From a virus: a stretch of 64,000 nt of DNA. The stretch is taken from positions 124,001 to 188,000 of the IMG/VR virus record IMGVR_UViG_3300046171_000231; one strand, 5' to 3'. Within the stretch, counting starts at the first letter, position 1; every line of letters begins with the position of its first letter. The notes beneath the pieces are model-generated. The model ran no database searches and had not been told where the DNA came from. It was given only the letters and a program-made list of their open reading frames with translations. The position numbers and the translations under genes were made by a program. This document shows, piece after piece, positions 13,003 to 59,404 of the stretch.

Positions 13003-13424
13003 TTATTTATTATTCATCCACATTTTACGAGAACCTGTCCCACCATAAGCATATGTCTTTTTCTTTTTCTTTACAGGAGGTTCATCACCTGCCTCTACTG
13101 AACCTGCAATACCACCACCACTCATAGAGTTTGCTATCGCTACTTCTTCTTTACGAAAATTCTTTATTGCACTAGTTACCTTTTCTTTCGGAGTCATTCT
13201 AGAATCAGCAAATTTTTCTGTAGGGTCTGGTTTTGATTTAATGTTTAGTAAAAATCTAGCAGGGACAGTTGCCATTTTACCAGCATCTATAACTCTCTTT
13301 TTAAGAGATTTACCTTTTGCTTTAGACAGTGATTGCAGTCAGTACCACCACCTCCACCACCAAGACTCATCACTGGTGGAACTTTTTTATTCATCTCTTC
13401 TTGAAATTCACTGAAGGATTTCAT
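13003..13424 (-). CDS. Conserved-type virion-like protein, frameshifted
   Basis: The ATG at 13424 overlaps the upstream stop (ATGA) and opens with MKSFSEFQEEMNKK, the MxxFxxF N-terminus seen in other structural-type genes here. That frame ends at 13287. A second frame, open from about 13335 to 13003, continues with SLSKAKGKSLKKR and a Lys-rich segment ending TYAYGGTGSRKMW. The combined length is 422 bases, not divisible by three, so one base is missing or two are extra near 13335. The merged product would be about 140 residues. Function unknown. Confidence 0.5.
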
Positions 13425-15317: not shown

Positions 15318-16793
15318 CTATGGTCTGCCTGGTGCCATGTTTGAGGGGTTGGCAGTTCCTGGTCCGTATGGATTATACTTTGGTTTTCTTGTCTTAGGTG
15401 CTGTATCTTTTTTAATTTCACCTGATGGTTCTTTCTTCTTTTTAGTTCCATCTTCATTATATGGACTATTCTTTCCACCTGGTCTCATAATATCAAATGC
15501 AGGGTCATCCTTTGCAGGAGTTCTTTCTGTATTCTTTGGTGCATTATCTCTTTTAGGTGCACCGTGTGTTGGTGTTCCATCTTTTCTAATTATTGTTTCA
15601 TCTATCTTCTCTTCACAAGCATCAACTGCCATCACCATTGGATCTCTTTGACCAGCAGCACGAAGTTTATTCTTGATTAAATTAATCATTGCATACTTGC
15701 TACGAAGATCTGGTTTCTCTTCTTCTTTCTCATCTTCTTTCTTCACAGAAGTTTTAGTCATCATACTCGATACTTTATCTTTCTTTGCTAATTCTTCCTT
15801 TTTCTTTTTCTCATCATACATTTCTATCATTCTTTTCTGTGCTTCAGAAAGAGTAGAACCTTTTAAAAGATGATGAGCATATTGCATACTCTTAGTTTTC
15901 TTCTCCTCTTCTTTTTGAGGATCAGGAGAAAGTGTTACAGCACCTGATGCATAATTGTCAACACCTTTACCAGTTATTTTATCTTTTCCTCTTGGTTCTG
16001 TTGAGATAGTTCCATCTGCTAAGTATGCTTCTGCTTGAGTACGAATTGCTTTACCAATTGCCTTCCTTCTTTTCATAAGATACTTATCAGATTTATTCAC
16101 CTTACCATCATTATTAACATCAGCATCTTCTTTTCCAACTGGATCTAATCCACCACCTTTTGCTTTTGCAGTCATACTACCTTTCTTTCTTTCACCTTCA
16201 TATGGTTCACCGTGGTCTGTCATCTCAACAGATTCAATATTAGGATTACCACGAAGTTCTGTAATCTTAGCACGGTCTGCAAATCTTACATATGATTTAC
16301 CATTCTTATCTGTAACTCTTACTTTATATTTCTGACCAGGTTCTTCATCTAACTGTTGTAGATATGCAAGTTCAAGTTCTTTCTCCGAATCATTCTTTTC
16401 TACGAATACCTTATATAATGCATTTGCAACACCATCAACTGCTAATTCATCTGCACTGTTAATATACTTCTCTGACATACCACCAGTCTTACCAAATAGT
16501 TTTTCTCTAACAGCAGTTCTTTCTGCCTGACCTAATGAACTGTTAGACATATATTGAGCGAAAGCAGCTTTCAAATCTATATCTTCTCTTCTTGCACGAT
16601 ATCTAATATCATAAACTGCCTGACGAATTTTCTTTTCAGAACCTTCTTCAGACGCACCTTTTCCACCACCACCTTTTGCTGCTGGTTTTCCACCACCTTT
16701 CGCTTCAAGAGGTGCAGATTTTCCTTTAGATTTTGCCATTGCAGCAGGTGCAAACTTTCTTGCTGGAAGACTTTCAGCTATATCAGTGCTCAT
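15318..16793 (-). CDS. Large charged virion-type protein with EF-hand-like loop
   Basis: 491 residues, low-complexity Lys/Glu/Gly-rich with several short ordered segments. Around residues 222-236 is DVNNDGKVNKSD, a good DxNxDGxxxxxD calcium-binding loop of EF-hand/dockerin type, followed by a basic helix. The C-terminus is Pro/Gly/Lys-rich. A late promoter octamer lies upstream at 16825. Large proteins of this type occur in the structural region of marine T4-like phages. Function unknown, Ca2+ binding inferred from the motif alone. Confidence 0.55.
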   Translation of the reverse strand: MSTDIAESLPARKFAPAAMAKSKGKSAPLEAKGGGKPAAKGGGGKGASEEGSEKKIRQAVYDIRYRARREDIDLKAAFAQYMSNSSLGQAERTAVREKLFGKTGGMSEKYINSADELAVDGVANALYKVFVEKNDSEKELELAYLQQLDEEPGQKYKVRVTDKNGKSYVRFADRAKITELRGNPNIESVEMTDHGEPYEGERKKGSMTAKAKGGGLDPVGKEDADVNNDGKVNKSDKYLMKRRKAIGKAIRTQAEAYLADGTISTEPRGKDKITGKGVDNYASGAVTLSPDPQKEEEKKTKSMQYAHHLLKGSTLSEAQKRMIEMYDEKKKKEELAKKDKVSSMMTKTSVKKEDEKEEEKPDLRSKYAMINLIKNKLRAAGQRDPMVMAVDACEEKIDETIIRKDGTPTHGAPKRDNAPKNTERTPAKDDPAFDIMRPGGKNSPYNEDGTKKKKEPSGEIKKDTAPKTRKPKYNPYGPGTANPSNMAPGRP

Positions 16794-16804
16794 TTTAATG
16801 ATAA

Positions 16805-18076
16805 TTACTTTCTAACTTTATATTTATTTATAAATTGAAATCCATAAGAACTTCCAGGAACCATAGTTTCGACGTATTTACGGAGTTTATCAGTGCCAGT
16901 TAATCTCTGATCTGCTGAAACACCCGATGGAGTTGTTGCATTTACAACTGCTTCTTGCAAATCTTTCACCCAAGATTTAAACATTATATTATTCTCTGCA
17001 ACACATATCAAATGATTTGCACCACGACGAATAATACGTCCTATTAGACCTGTATTTAAGTTTTCAACTTTATCACCAATATTAAAAATCTCCTTCTTAA
17101 CGTATGATTCTCTTAAATTTTCTGTATCATATTTTGGTGCAATCTCCCATATATTCCAAAACTCTTTCATCTCCTTAACATTCATTGTTTGTCTTACTGT
17201 ATCAAACAATGTCATTGCCATTTTTCTTGGAGTGTCTTCTGGTAATCCTGCACGGAATGATTTGAAATCTCCTTCTGCTGCTGCAAGTCTCATTCTTGAA
17301 GATGATAAACCTTCCATACCTTCTGCATCAGGATCACGATCACCTGATGAAACAACTTCCATATTATCGAATTGATAGAGTTGACCATTATAATTTTGTG
17401 ATAATTTATCAAACTCTTTTACACGATCCTGTCCTGCGACTATTCTAACATTAGTATATCCATCATTATGTGCTTTCTTTAATACATCAAAAATAGTACG
17501 ATTCGCTCCGTCATTTATAATTCTTTCACTGTGTTGTGGGAACATTTGTCTCATCATTGATACTTTAGTGTCAGCATCAAGTGGATTTTTCTTAGGATCT
17601 TGTGACCTTGATGGGACAATTATATAATCACTTTCTTCTTGCTCTGCTGATTGTGCAGCTATATCCATTAATTGTTGATGACCTGCGTGTGGTGGATTAA
17701 ATCTACCAAATGCAAGAGTTAATGTTCCTTTTGTTTTTTCAACTGGTGGCGGACCTGCTGCTAAATCGGGACTTTGAACTTGTTGTTGCTGCTGCTGTTG
17801 ATCTGGTGCAGGTTCTTGTTGTGGTGCTTGTTGACCCTCTGGTGGAACCTCCATATTAGGATCAGATAAATTCTTTTCCTTTTCTGATTGCTCTGGATCT
17901 TTTCCACCTACTTTCTGTCTCTTATTATAAAACTTTAACTTACCTTTCTCTGTCTTCGCTACAAATTCTCCTGTATTTCTATCAGTCCATCCACCATGAC
18001 CGTCACCAACTAAACCCAATCTTGCTGCTTGTTGGGTTGCAGTGCTCTCAGTAATAAATTGTAAAAATGATTTCAT
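16805..18076 (-). CDS. Nucleotidyltransferase (cytidylyltransferase fold) in a virion-type protein
   Basis: 423 residues. An N-terminal MKSFLQFITES peptide like those of structural genes and a Gln/Pro-rich linker (about 75-115) precede a nucleotidyltransferase domain. That domain has GRFNPPHAGH (the HxGH motif, near 125-134) and the C-terminal LSSSRMR (near 262), equivalent to the ISSTxxR signature of NMN/pantetheine-phosphate adenylyltransferases. A basic C-terminal segment (IGDKVENLNTGLIGRIIRRG) looks like a KOW/SH3-type barrel. The enzyme would transfer a nucleotidyl group from NTP; the substrate is unknown. The combination of structural-type ends and a catalytic core suggests packaging into the virion. 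Confidence 0.7.
   Translation of the reverse strand: MKSFLQFITESTATQQAARLGLVGDGHGGWTDRNTGEFVAKTEKGKLKFYNKRQKVGGKDPEQSEKEKNLSDPNMEVPPEGQQAPQQEPAPDQQQQQQQVQSPDLAAGPPPVEKTKGTLTLAFGRFNPPHAGHQQLMDIAAQSAEQEESDYIIVPSRSQDPKKNPLDADTKVSMMRQMFPQHSERIINDGANRTIFDVLKKAHNDGYTNVRIVAGQDRVKEFDKLSQNYNGQLYQFDNMEVVSSGDRDPDAEGMEGLSSSRMRLAAAEGDFKSFRAGLPEDTPRKMAMTLFDTVRQTMNVKEMKEFWNIWEIAPKYDTENLRESYVKKEIFNIGDKVENLNTGLIGRIIRRGANHLICVAENNIMFKSWVKDLQEAVVNATTPSGVSADQRLTGTDKLRKYVETMVPGSSYGFQFINKYKVRK
16825..16832 (-). promoter_or_regulatory. T4-type late promoter (TATAAATA)
   Basis: Exact late octamer within the 3' end of the upstream gene, 32 bases before the ATG at 16793. Confidence 0.65.
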
Positions 18077-18279
18077 CAGTCTTTTATTAGTTTCAATAAG
18101 ATTTCATTCTTATTGTGCGTCATATACTCAAGAATAGACGCTCTGGTATGTTTATATTTATCATCTTTGTCAGCACCCAATATTCTATAAGAAAAAAACA
18201 TAAAGTTATCGTAGATATTTCCTCGGATAATTTTTTGTTTTTTAAACTGAATTATTAGTGATTCAATTAAATCATTCAT
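18076..18279 (-). CDS. Small protein, function unknown
   Basis: 67 residues, charged and helical. It overlaps its neighbours by 1 and 4 bases. No motif recognised. Confidence 0.5.
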   Translation of the reverse strand: MNDLIESLIIQFKKQKIIRGNIYDNFMFFSYRILGADKDDKYKHTRASILEYMTHNKNEILLKLIKD

Positions 18280-19652
18280 GAGCTTGTTACAGGATTTTCA
18301 TTTGCAGAAGAACCTATAAGTTCTTTTAGAAAGGCACCCTTCTCTACGTAATTACGATAATATAAGTATGGTCTACCTTTAGAGTCTTTTAAATTTTGAA
18401 CCATAGACCTCAACTGAATCAGAGTTTTATTAGACTCTGCCTCTTCAATAACTATTGTTGGCAGACCACTTTTACCAACATTAAATTTTACATCAAAGTT
18501 ATAATCTAATAATTTTTGAGACACATTTTTAAAATCATAAATTGTTGCTTCACCCCTATTTAAGTCAATTATTTCAACAGTGTTACCATTTTCATCAACT
18601 ACTCCTGCATTATCTCGTGTTGCAAATTGTTTAATTCCTGAACCCAATATAGACTTTGCTCCTTGTGGATTTAATTTTAATTTACTTCTAAGTTTATCTG
18701 CTGCTTGTTTATAGATATATTCCATTTTTTTTGCACCACTAGTTTTAGTTTGAAATTGTTGTTGTTCTGCTGACATATTTTCTTGAATAGCCGTAGAAAA
18801 AAATGTAGAGACAGCGGAAAATTCACCTCCACTTACTTGTCCAAATAAGGCAGTATCGTCAACTTTGAGAGATACATTTATATTAACACCTTTTAAAAGA
18901 CCTTTATCATTTGTTATTTTGACTTGTACATCAATCTTTGTACTCCTAGAATCTGATACTCCATCAGCTTTAACTTCAACTGTGTCAATTCTTTTATTAT
19001 AATATATTGTATTTACCCACTCTCTTACAACTTGTCTATCAGCATATTGGATTGACGCAGTAATATATTGTGCTAATGCCTCTATATTAGCAGGGTTTGT
19101 AAGAAAATTCATATTAGTTGGTTTCAGAACTATTGTAAGTCGTATTACATCTTGACCAGGTATACCAACATTAGGTGCAGTTCCAGTAAAAGTTGCAGTA
19201 TTTCTTGCTGCATTTACACTCAAACTACGAATAATATTTTTTACTGCTGCTGCATCAGTTTGTTTATTTCTATTAATAAATCTTGCTGCTAACGCTGCTG
19301 CAAAGACACCTTCAGCAATATCTCCTAAGTTACCACTTACACTAGTAGGTGCTGACAGTGATCCAAACTTAATTAATTTATTTTCAGTTGTCAATAAATC
19401 TATACCCATCGCAGCAGATTTCTGCCTTTGAGCAACATTTGTCACAAATGAATTTATTAAATTTTCTTGTCCCTTTTTTATAACAACACTTTGTTTATTT
19501 GTATATCGATTTGGATCTAATCTACTATCTTTCTTTTCATCATTCTCTCTTTTTATAGACAATCCCCTTTCAATACTGGCATTTAAATCTTCTACAAGAT
19601 TTCCCAATAATTTTATTAAGTTAACAGAATCTTTACTATCTAATCTTGCCAC
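18276..19652 (-). CDS. Large protein of unknown function (GTG start)
   Basis: 458 residues; the start codon is GTG at 19652. An Ala-rich segment (LGDIAEGVFAAALAARF, near residue 105-125) and alternating beta segments such as STKIDVQVKITNDKG are visible. The ExxxAAxL and later D-x-Q-V-K could be read as a nuclease-like fold, but no complete PD-(D/E)XK motif can be defended. Probably a virion or late protein by position. Confidence 0.5.
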   Translation of the reverse strand: MARLDSKDSVNLIKLLGNLVEDLNASIERGLSIKRENDEKKDSRLDPNRYTNKQSVVIKKGQENLINSFVTNVAQRQKSAAMGIDLLTTENKLIKFGSLSAPTSVSGNLGDIAEGVFAAALAARFINRNKQTDAAAVKNIIRSLSVNAARNTATFTGTAPNVGIPGQDVIRLTIVLKPTNMNFLTNPANIEALAQYITASIQYADRQVVREWVNTIYYNKRIDTVEVKADGVSDSRSTKIDVQVKITNDKGLLKGVNINVSLKVDDTALFGQVSGGEFSAVSTFFSTAIQENMSAEQQQFQTKTSGAKKMEYIYKQAADKLRSKLKLNPQGAKSILGSGIKQFATRDNAGVVDENGNTVEIIDLNRGEATIYDFKNVSQKLLDYNFDVKFNVGKSGLPTIVIEEAESNKTLIQLRSMVQNLKDSKGRPYLYYRNYVEKGAFLKELIGSSANENPVTSS

Positions 19653-44713: not shown

Positions 44714-44932
44714 CTATCTGACTTTTTTCTCAAATTCACCAAGCTTCTTCTTACCTTTATTTAATGCTTCATATCCTTTATTGATAAGCAAATTCATAGC
44801 ATTCTTTTTCAAGTCTTTAACTTCTTTACTTTTAGCAAAGGTTTTCATTTGTGGCACTATAGTATCAGCAAATCCTTTCATAGTTGCTTTCATACTATCA
44901 ACATCTTCTTGAAATTGTGAGAATGTTTTCAT
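44714..44932 (-). CDS. Small Lys-rich virion-type protein
   Basis: 72 residues beginning MKTFSQFQEDVDSMKA, matching the MxxFxxF N-terminus seen in other structural-type genes of this window. The remainder is a basic helix. Possibly an internal virion peptide; function unknown. Confidence 0.5.
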   Translation of the reverse strand: MKTFSQFQEDVDSMKATMKGFADTIVPQMKTFAKSKEVKDLKKNAMNLLINKGYEALNKGKKKLGEFEKKVR

Positions 44933-56161: not shown

Positions 56162-57556
56162 TTACATAAGGTTGGAAACCTTAACTCTTCTGTAGTAACG
56201 GTTTGTGTTACGTGTAAGTGTTCCAAGTCCTTGAGTTGTTCCTTGTGAGAATGGGTTCTCAACCATACCATATCTGGTCTTGAATCCAATTTTTGGTTGG
56301 AATGTATCCTGACCAACCGCACGAACCATCTGTAATGGTACATATGGGCAGTAGAATAATCCAGCGTCATAAGGAGATGAACCTTTGTATCCGATAACAT
56401 AGTACTGAGTAGCAGCAACGTTAGCAGCAAATGGGTCAATGTACACTCTGTACTTACCTTGTAATACACCAGCAAATGTATTGCCTGTGTCATCTACATT
56501 AAGGTTAGCGTTAAGAGCAGGAGTGTAGTCTAATACACCAGCCATTGTCAATGCAGAAGCAACGTCAGCAGAACAAAGGATCATGTTACCCTTTCCTCTA
56601 CGAGTCTCTTGTGCGATTGCGTTAGCATCTCTTTCCATCTGGAATATGAGACCTTTGAACTTCTCAACTGACCATCTTCCGTTGGAGTCTGTGTCTAAGT
56701 CGAATGTTCCACCAGAAGCAACGTTTGCTTGAGCACCAGGCTTCGCTACGTTGTAAATTGTTCTGATAACTTCTCTGTTGATTTCAGCAAGTATCTCTGT
56801 TGAAAGGATATTTGCTAACTCAGCCTCTGCGTTCAATCCGTGGATTGCCTTAAGGTCTTGAGCAAGTTCTAAACTGTACTCTGCCTTTAGTGCTCTGGAC
56901 TTCGCTGTAACGGTCACTTTCTCGATTGAGAATGCCATTTCGTTGAAGTTATCACCAGTTGTACCTAGATCTTCAGAATCTCCAGTTGTCATACCCTGAC
57001 CTACGTTGTAGTCAGTAGCATTTGCTTGAGATGCAGTTCCACCAAGTAATCCTGGATTTGTACCACTTTGAGCAGTTGTACCTAAACCAACGTTAGATGC
57101 ACCAGTAGCAGTGAAACCTGCTGTGTTGTCAAATCCTTCATTCTGACCAGAGAATGCTGAATCTGCTTCGTTGAATAGTGCTTCTGAACCAGACTGAGTT
57201 TTGAATCTGGATCTCATTGCAAAGATTAGTCCAGTTGGACCATTCATTGGTTGTACACCAGCCAAATCGTATGCCACCAAGTTAGGCATTGAACGACGAA
57301 TTAGACTGATAAGTACTGGGTCGAAACCAGCAACAGGACCTGCAGCAGTTGCACCAGCGGTGAATCCACCTGTGCCAGCAGCGTTTGTTGGTTGTTCTGC
57401 AAGGAATGATGCTTCCTCACGTAATTCTTTTTCTTGGTTTTCTAACAGGATAGCGGTTGTAGCTCTTCTATGAGCGTCTTTGATTGGATCAACTCCATCA
57501 TAGTCGAGAATAGGTCCCCACTTTTCCTGCAAATGTTCTGTGTTATACATTTGCAT
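56162..57556 (-). CDS. 23: Major capsid protein (T4 gp23-like)
   Basis: 464 residues. The N-terminal region is a helical prohead-cleaved segment; the mature body includes GVQPMNGPTGLIFAMRSRF, KSRALKAEYSLELAQDLKAIHG, KGNMILCSADVASALTMAG and YRVYIDPFA, typical of gp23. The C-terminus ends RYYRRVKVSNLM. It assembles the HK97-fold shell and is processed by gp21. It follows the scaffold gp22 and ends at a strong terminator. Its ribosome-binding site is AAGAGG before ATG 57556. Confidence 0.96.
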   Translation of the reverse strand: MQMYNTEHLQEKWGPILDYDGVDPIKDAHRRATTAILLENQEKELREEASFLAEQPTNAAGTGGFTAGATAAGPVAGFDPVLISLIRRSMPNLVAYDLAGVQPMNGPTGLIFAMRSRFKTQSGSEALFNEADSAFSGQNEGFDNTAGFTATGASNVGLGTTAQSGTNPGLLGGTASQANATDYNVGQGMTTGDSEDLGTTGDNFNEMAFSIEKVTVTAKSRALKAEYSLELAQDLKAIHGLNAEAELANILSTEILAEINREVIRTIYNVAKPGAQANVASGGTFDLDTDSNGRWSVEKFKGLIFQMERDANAIAQETRRGKGNMILCSADVASALTMAGVLDYTPALNANLNVDDTGNTFAGVLQGKYRVYIDPFAANVAATQYYVIGYKGSSPYDAGLFYCPYVPLQMVRAVGQDTFQPKIGFKTRYGMVENPFSQGTTQGLGTLTRNTNRYYRRVKVSNLM

Positions 57557-57602: not shown

Positions 57603-58682
57603 TCACTTTTTGGCAGCTCTGGATAGAACGTTCAAATAGGCTTGCATTCTAGGAGTAGTCTCTTCCGAGATTACTTCATCTGTTGAAACCTCTTCTGATA
57701 AGTTCTCAGAGGTGCTCTTTGGAGCACTAGTTTTTGATGGGAAATAAGATTCCTTCAATGTAACTAGTTTCTCACGATAGTCTGTCTCACTTTCAAACTC
57801 AACATTTTCGGCAAGAGTAGCGAGTTTTTCCTTCTGAGTGTCTGCAAGACCTTCAGCTACAGCAGTGAAAACACCGTCTGCATTGGATTCTGCCAATCTA
57901 CGATTTAGAGCAACGTTACGATCTATTTGCTCATTGAGTTTTGATTCCATTTCATCAAGTTTGTCTACCATGCTATTGAGTACATCGTATTTTTCTTCAG
58001 GGATTGTTACATAATGTTCTTCAAAAAGTGACTTCATACCTTCCAAGAAGGATTCTGTCATCTCTGTTTTAAGTCCTGCTTCTACTTGGAGTGCATTTTC
58101 TTGCATCCACTCGTCAGCGACATACTCAAGGTATCCATCAACTCTTTCAGTTAATCCTGCCTTGATTGTGTCTAACTCTTCAACGAGAGCAGTAGCATAA
58201 GACTCTTGTAATTCTTCTTTGATTTCTGCAACTTTAGTTTTGATTGCAGCTTCAAAAATTGTCTTTGCTTTGTTTTGGAACTCTTCGGAAAGTTCTTCAC
58301 CTTCAAGAAGTGCTGCAACGTCTGCTTCGACATCATAACTTTCTTCTTCTTCGATGACTTCTTCCTCAGAAGTTTCTTCTTCAGCGACTACTTCATCTGT
58401 AGTTGCTTCTTCTTCAGCGACTACTTCATCTGTAGTTGCTTCTTCTTCCTCGATAACTTCCTCCTCTGTTTCTGCCTCTTCTGCTTTCATAGCTTTGGCA
58501 TTAACAACATCTTTCACTTGTGCAAGTGTAAGTGCAGGATCTTTCAGCTTTGCTGAATCGTCATCAGGTTTATAGTTTTCTGGTGTAGGTCCACCTAGAT
58601 CTTCTACTGGAATGCCTGATGAAGGCATTGGATCTGCAGGTTTTGCACCTTTGGTGACTACGTTTTCTTCGATGTTTTCCAT
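57603..58682 (-). CDS. 22: Prohead core scaffolding protein (T4 gp22-like)
   Basis: 359 residues, strongly acidic and helical, as expected for an internal scaffold. It has a long Glu/Val/Ala/Thr-rich region with a direct 11-residue repeat (EEATTDEVVAE) and coiled-coil segments. Order gp21-gp22-gp23 matches T4. A late promoter lies just upstream. It is degraded by gp21 during maturation. Confidence 0.9.
   Translation of the reverse strand: MENIEENVVTKGAKPADPMPSSGIPVEDLGGPTPENYKPDDDSAKLKDPALTLAQVKDVVNAKAMKAEEAETEEEVIEEEEATTDEVVAEEEATTDEVVAEEETSEEEVIEEEESYDVEADVAALLEGEELSEEFQNKAKTIFEAAIKTKVAEIKEELQESYATALVEELDTIKAGLTERVDGYLEYVADEWMQENALQVEAGLKTEMTESFLEGMKSLFEEHYVTIPEEKYDVLNSMVDKLDEMESKLNEQIDRNVALNRRLAESNADGVFTAVAEGLADTQKEKLATLAENVEFESETDYREKLVTLKESYFPSKTSAPKSTSENLSEEVSTDEVISEETTPRMQAYLNVLSRAAKK
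58381..58446 (-). repeat. 22: 33-bp perfect tandem repeat inside gp22
   Basis: Two identical 33-base units (58381-58413 and 58414-58446) encode two copies of an 11-residue acidic block. Copy number is likely to vary among relatives. Confidence 0.85.
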
Positions 58683-58753: not shown

Positions 58754-59404
58754 TTAGAGATTATTTAGAAAATCTTGAAACAGACTAAGTTTCTTTTCTT
58801 CTAATCTATTTTGTGTGACAAGTGTGTTAATACGCTTCTCAGTTTTTGCTGCGAGTTCTTCACGAAGACTTCCACCTTCCCAAACCCACTCTCTTCCTTC
58901 CATTATTCCATTCACAAAAGCGTCTGGTGCGGAAGGGTCTGCTACTATATCAGCAGCGGTTGCTAATTGAAAATCTTCTCCAACCATTTTACAACCATTA
59001 CTACTTTCTCTTAGTGATCCGATACCACGAGAAGACACTCCAAGTTTTACTCCTTCATCTAAAAGAGAAGATGCAATTTTACCCATTGGAGTAGATAGTA
59101 AAGTCGCTTTTCCTCTAAAATTATTTCCCTCTCTTACGAGCGAGGTAATTTTGTGGGATACACGATCTAAGTTAACTGTTGGACCTTCAGGATGACCAAG
59201 TTCACCAAGTGCTCTGCCTTGAGAGACAAAAGTTTTGTTGTATCTTCTGACTTCATTTTCAAGAATATCAACAGGATACATTCTACCATTACGATTTTTG
59301 ATACCACCTTGAAGAAACACACCCTCGATACAGAGACGTTTTGATTTCCCTTTACCTTCGGTGATAAATTTTACTTGTGAGACTTCTTCTGTGATAAGTT
59401 TCAT
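58754..59404 (-). CDS. 21: Prohead protease (T4 gp21-like)
   Basis: 216 residues. The His of LGELGHPEGPTVNLDRVSH and the Ser of LGVSSRGIGSL match the His-Ser protease of T4 prohead maturation; GVFLQGGIKNRNGRMYP forms the early strand block. It cleaves gp22, gp23 and other core proteins. It follows gp67 with a 1-base overlap. Confidence 0.93.
   Translation of the reverse strand: MKLITEEVSQVKFITEGKGKSKRLCIEGVFLQGGIKNRNGRMYPVDILENEVRRYNKTFVSQGRALGELGHPEGPTVNLDRVSHKITSLVREGNNFRGKATLLSTPMGKIASSLLDEGVKLGVSSRGIGSLRESSNGCKMVGEDFQLATAADIVADPSAPDAFVNGIMEGREWVWEGGSLREELAAKTEKRINTLVTQNRLEEKKLSLFQDFLNNL

Follow-up and report, generated by a model that had tools for sequence, protein, structure and literature searches.

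A capsid-targeting-like N-terminus on the T4-GC190 nucleotidyltransferase points to a probable NMNAT-like internal head protein in T4-type cyanophages

The internal proteins IPI, IPII and IPIII of phage T4 share a short N-terminal tag (MKxFxxFIxE|A/S) that ends in Glu10 and is processed by gp21, with variable cargo behind this constant end. The first ten residues of IPIII, its capsid targeting sequence (CTS), are enough for packaging, and mutations within the CTS have assigned targeting to residues 4 and 7 and processing to residues 8 and 10 (PMC9026906). The cargo of these T4 proteins is small, IPI being an inhibitor of GmrSD. T4 Alt, which is known to be injected, is an enzyme carried in the head with an N-terminal propeptide that also contains Glu10; it is an ADP-ribosyltransferase, a class other than the nucleotidyltransferases, and cyanophages lack alt, modA and modB. 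In cyanophages, the core gene T4-GC190 encodes a protein of the S-SM1 virion, where it was one of two core cyanophage proteins detected for the first time (Sullivan et al. 2010, PMC3037559). A cytidylyltransferase was likewise detected in virions of S-SZBM1 (PMC9146016) and S-CREM2 (PMC10665884), and an NMNAT-like protein has been reported for S-CBWM1. The authors of the virion proteomes proposed a role in NAD metabolism, but cautioned that enzymes of this kind might have co-purified as contaminants. The presence of this enzyme in virions of relatives is thus already published, and the family itself is not new. A CTS reading of the T4-GC190 N-terminus was not found in the published work searched, where the route of entry into the virion is likewise unexplained; our search, which covered non-subscription papers, turned up none that connects the CTS with cyanophage cargo.

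The T4-GC190 orthologue described here lies in a 64,000-nt stretch (the window; positions 124,001 to 188,000) of the 235,761-base IMG/VR virus record IMGVR_UViG_3300046171_000231, a close relative of Prochlorococcus phage P-SSM2. The gene occupies 16805–18076 on the minus strand as an exact open reading frame of 423 codons with an ATG start, and its product matches phrog_395 (“cytidyltransferase”) over its full length (1.4e-102, PHROGs). Its nearest annotated relative is PSSM2_194 (80% identity, 100% query coverage by tblastn), which carries the label T4-GC190 in the P-SSM2 record, and relatives are present in 554 phage records (tblastn). In family, architecture and tag, the protein shows no material difference from PSSM2_194, SSM1_190 and S-SCSM1 ORF91.

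The gene belongs to a same-strand run (18276–19652, 18076–18279 and 16805–18076) whose members adjoin by overlapping start and stop codons; it is followed by a gene at 15318–16793 (minus strand). A 76-aa region of this downstream neighbor is 57% identical to SSCSM1_92, an annotated virion protein, with which it also has a dockerin-like “DVNNDGKVNKSDKYLMKRRKAIGKA” motif in common. The upstream gene at 18276–19652 was considered as a homologue of the virion protein SSCSM1_90 and dropped, as blastp gave no match. A TATAAATA late-promoter-like site was found at 16825–16832, just ahead of the downstream neighbor; no such site was seen directly upstream of 16805–18076, which we count against the main reading. 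PADLOC returned no match. The same genome encodes both a gp21 prohead protease (58754–59404, minus strand; PF03420, 4.7e-35; 79% identical to PSSM2 gp21), which itself carries KFITE|G near its N-terminus, and a gp22 prohead core scaffold (57603–58682, minus strand). The major capsid protein gp23 was assigned to 56162–57556 (minus strand) from its position next to gp22 and gp21 and its T4-like N-terminus; FLAE|Q is its candidate maturation site.

The first ten residues of the 423-aa protein, MKSFLQFITE (18047–18076, minus strand), resemble the T4 CTS, and gp21 cleavage is predicted to fall between E10 and S11. Compared with MKTYQEFIAE|A of IPII and IPIII, the sequence MKSFLQFITE|S agrees at every position known to matter (F4, F7, I8 and E10). 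The sequence-only reading had described virion-type ends on this enzyme and proposed looking for a gp21-type cleavage site; its MKSFLQF structural-type N-terminus does appear to be an end of the head-protein type, and I-x-E|S stands directly behind the tag. Of 161 distinct family members, 155 retain the tag (154 by regular expression, plus the S-CREM2 member), and orthologues fetched through the catalytic domain, not the N-terminus, also keep it. Among the 154 members matching the expression, F4 is present in 152, F7 in 154, L or I at position 8 in 145, and E10 in 148. Examples include S-SSM4 (MKKFSDFLTE|A), Syn10 (MKKFSAFLSE|A), S-SM1 (MKKFSAFLNE|A), S-CRM01 (MKLFNQFFKE|A) and P-RSM6 (MITFHVFITE|A), and in the latter two the tag runs almost directly into the catalytic domain. 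Counted against the main reading, the P1′ residue is more often Ser, Thr or Asn than Ala. A conserved N-terminus could instead serve translation initiation, or act as a membrane or host-compartment signal, and the beginning of a highly expressed phage gene can be under constraint. However, codons for the conserved tag residues differ synonymously (TTT/TTC, GAA/GAG), and therefore selection acts on the protein; moreover, the invariant residues are those that matter in T4. We consider such another function of the N-terminus very improbable.

Evidence that the family is found in virions comes from orthologues. The S-SCSM1 orthologue (ORF91), which is 51% identical to the 423-aa protein, is an annotated virion protein, as are its neighbors SSCSM1_89, 90 and 92. 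The suggestion, made from sequence, that the enzyme travels in the virion is thus borne out by mass spectrometry (MS) for orthologues in S-SM1, S-SCSM1, S-SZBM1 and S-CREM2, while the present phage is known from its sequence. The concern raised by the proteome authors themselves would make this protein an ordinary auxiliary metabolic enzyme, produced in the infected cell and merely adhering to purified virions. Few peptides were recovered in S-CREM2 and S-SZBM1, and the tag is absent from the relatives encoded by jumbo coliphage PBECO4 and Caulobacter phage Cr30, which would suit such an enzyme. Nevertheless, the recurrence of orthologues across four or more independent virion proteomes, the conservation of CTS and cleavage residues, the virion proteins adjoining the S-SCSM1 gene, and the ability of the tag alone to predict virion membership in S-CREM2 (below) lead us to regard adhesion to virions as unlikely.

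We assessed the chance occurrence of the tag by counting a strict expression (^MK.[FYL]..[FYL][LIVMQ].[ED]) at each in-frame ATG of the six reading frames. There were 4 matches against 0.19 expected in this genome, 3 against 0.15 in P-SSM2 (3/3 at annotated gene starts: PSSM2_115, 194 and 211) and 4 against 0.21 in T4, IPII and IPIII included, counts that lie far above chance but are partly circular, because the expression was shaped after our own sequence had been seen and in knowledge of the T4 tag. A looser N-terminal expression gave mostly noise in P-SSM2 and in this genome. Two further open reading frames in the window, of 45 aa (13287–13424, minus strand; MKSFSEFQEE) and 72 aa (44714–44932, minus strand; MKTFSQFQED), begin with the same type of tag. 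The independent test was run on S-CREM2, a cluster C phage that is distant and had not been seen before, with the expression fixed beforehand. The expression matched 4 of 219 annotated coding sequences, and all four are among the 52 proteins placed in the virion by MS (hypergeometric P = 0.003), a test that rests on four proteins: ORF6 (a SAM hydrolase), ORF13, ORF14 (a kinase) and ORF154, itself the T4-GC190 orthologue. S-SCSM1, a weak second proteome test, has two tag carriers at annotated starts, of which one is a virion protein; the other, SSCSM1_30 (106 aa), carries no virion label, and we count it against the main reading.

Behind the tag lies a second conserved segment (residues 12–53; 17918–18043, minus strand; LGLxGDGHGGWxDxxTGEFVAKTxxGKLKF) that is common to otherwise unrelated virion enzymes. 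A profile of this module, trained on the nucleotidyltransferase family only, matched two copies in the S-CREM2 kinase ORF14 (9.8e-17) and also matched S-CREM2 ORF12 (8.7e-11), S-CRM01 g128 (2.1e-11), an open reading frame in viral contig L201 (4.9e-7) and, more weakly, the S-CRM01 kinase PKN8 (0.0017). Both ORF12 and ORF14 are virion proteins (PMC10665884), and the S-CRM01 kinase has been reported as one. The 40-residue module is probably a shared head-cargo adaptor. ORF12 (L315:7704-10313) is annotated as Cas9, for which Pfam gave no supporting match, and it combines a CTS-like FASFMAE|A with the GDGHG module. In the L201 frame (L201:9932-10774), the module precedes an ADP-ribosyltransferase domain (PF03496, 1.3e-16), and the product may be an Alt-like injected enzyme.

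A nucleotide pattern encoding MK[ST]Fx[QE]F[hydrophobic]xE, which we ran against IMG/VR, hit at least 120 stretches, several of which may come from related contigs. Among the matches listed (at least 123), 121 of 123 stood at the start of an open reading frame, no more than 28 codons from an upstream stop; by comparison, plain ATGAAR lay this near to an upstream stop in 58% of cases over the first 79 loci. The listed matches included 117 tagged proteins of at least 45 aa, whose bodies fell into at least 55 mutually dissimilar clusters, and 84 of 120 stretches among the matches listed also carried a T4-type core gene. Pfam searches on 63 of the tagged proteins, again among the matches listed, identified six nucleotidyltransferases, five SAM lyases and one protein each of GNAT, methyltransferase and HNH type, and S-CRM01 encodes a tagged acetyltransferase. 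The largest tagged cluster among these matches was a family of ~105 aa (MKSFKQFISESVNISGDFNGNLYI...) found in L105, L112 and ~30 other loci, and S-SCSM1 ORF30 resembles one of its members. Three small tagged frames (in L128, L135 and L164) look like ADP-ribosyltransferases by eye, with a YHGT motif in two and no Pfam match. In T4 itself, gp61.1 (54 aa; L096:18966-19130) has a CTS-like start, MKTFKEFIKED, and could be an unrecognized T4 internal protein. Taken together, we lean towards the view that marine and freshwater T4-type phages share a CTS-like decapeptide as a general head-loading address on dozens of unrelated proteins (nucleotidyltransferases, SAM lyases, GNAT, kinase, methyltransferase and HNH), and that the Kyanoviridae mix the second cargo module with nucleotidyltransferase, kinase, nuclease-annotated and ADP-ribosyltransferase domains, in which case the tag would list injected proteins from sequence.

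The enzyme itself occupies residues 116–297 (17186–17731, minus strand), as delimited by Pfam, NCBIfam, AlphaFold2 and Foldseek. The sequence-only reading had called it a cytidylyltransferase-fold enzyme with HxGH and SSSRMR motifs, and both are present: HAGH at residues 130–133 (17678–17689, minus strand), within GRFNPPHAGH, and SSSRMR at residues 258–263 (17288–17305, minus strand), corresponding to an ISSTxxR-like second motif. Pfam CTP_transf_like scored 3.2e-11 on residues 121–263, over its curated cut-off. A lack of conservation at the HxGH site had been named beforehand as grounds for giving up the proposal; across the family the site is kept as [H/T]xGH, as is S[AS]S[RK][MLQ]R, so this objection fails. 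Many orthologues have Thr in place of the first His, a substitution that also occurs in other members of the superfamily. AlphaFold2 predicted a confident domain at ~116–300 (pLDDT about 85–93 in most blocks), with the linker and ends disordered.

Foldseek placed human NMNAT and bacterial NadD in the eight top PDB positions, ahead of FAD synthetases; a PDB sequence search using the family profile gave no relevant match, and this placement came from fold comparison alone. The best NCBIfam model was TIGR00482 (NaMN/NMN adenylyltransferase; 8.8e-7, 29 bits against a cut-off of 112), and all NCBIfam scores of the enzyme lay far below the curated cut-offs of the specific NMNAT models. We therefore label the enzyme NMNAT-like, not NMNAT. 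With NMNAT, NadD and NadM it has in common the Rossmann fold and the [H/T]xGH and SxSxxR (S/TxxxxR-type) motifs expected of NMN/NaMN adenylyltransferases, and it differs from them in its sub-cut-off scores and its extra N- and C-terminal domains. Fold and sequence thus put it nearest to the NMN/NaMN adenylyltransferases, with its substrate a prediction. A CTS-packaged nucleotidyltransferase might instead act on another acceptor, whether a host protein or RNA (AMPylation-like), or yield FAD, CoA or CDP compounds. The partial NCBIfam matches under every cut-off, the FAD synthetases soon after the NMNATs in the Foldseek list, the linker, module and barrel that a plain NMNAT would not need, and the tag on SAM lyase, GNAT and methyltransferase proteins all fit this alternative, whereas NMN/NaMN adenylyltransferases account for all eight top structural matches and for the best curated sequence model. 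We regard another acceptor as possible but doubtful.

Two candidate links to NAD metabolism were dropped. The cyanophage “NAD synthetase” T4-GC213, which has a homologue in this genome, was considered as a pathway partner but proved to be a SegE-type GIY-YIG endonuclease (PF19835, 5.6e-54), and the label is a standing misannotation (copies at L002:38569-39006, PSSM2_218, and L224:39998-40459, SSM1_208; homologue at L009:12625-13059). A connection to phage NAD reconstitution (NARP1) was set aside as well, since Namat is a Nampt homologue with a fold other than that of this enzyme.

The module and the enzyme are joined by a Gln/Pro/acid-rich linker (residues 56–113; 17738–17911, minus strand), predicted to be mostly disordered (low pLDDT at 50–64 and 70–104); the poly-Gln linker noted earlier corresponds to its Q-rich stretch. 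Beyond the enzyme, residues 328–372 (16961–17095, minus strand) model with low confidence as a small barrel of five short strands. Foldseek matched it weakly to the KOW barrels of SPT5/DSIF and eS4 and to Tudor barrels (best E 3e-3), and Pfam found no KOW domain in the 423-aa protein, so that “KOW-like” (KOW/SH3-like) is a plausible, low-confidence label for the model. Of the virion-type ends proposed from sequence, the C-terminal one was not upheld; the barrel occurs in the T4-GC190 family and on split-off neighboring frames; in S-RIM44 and contig L213 it lies on a frame unjoined to the catalytic domain. This region is labeled a ribonucleotide reductase subunit in phrog_4808 and in GenBank cyanophage records (H75, H105 and H107), apparently in error.

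We conclude that the protein is best read, and quite probably so, as a CTS-loaded, injected NMNAT-like internal head protein of a T4-type cyanophage. We strongly infer that the first ten residues would act as a CTS recruiting the protein to the gp22/gp21 prohead core, and that gp21 would cut after Glu10 (ITE|S), releasing the mature enzyme into the head of this phage. Compared with the T4 internal proteins, the cargo would be a folded enzyme with an added module. The later steps are speculative, including injection itself. The mature enzyme might be ejected into the host along with the DNA, where its Rossmann-fold domain would move a nucleotide, most likely AMP from ATP, onto a small acceptor that carries a phosphate, with NMN and NaMN the likeliest candidates, so that NAD or its precursor would be made as infection begins; the C-terminal barrel would probably serve as a binding domain. 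A possible benefit to the phage would be the maintenance of NAD levels as infection sets in or in the face of an NAD-depleting defense.

This reading offers a possible mechanism for a puzzle that has stood since 2010, namely the presence of a metabolic-type enzyme among the core virion proteins of ocean cyanophages. Should the tag prove real, the set of proteins that T4-type phages inject would become readable from their genomes, and the resulting list would include possible anti-defense enzymes (SAM lyase and NAD-related) acting ahead of all phage gene expression.
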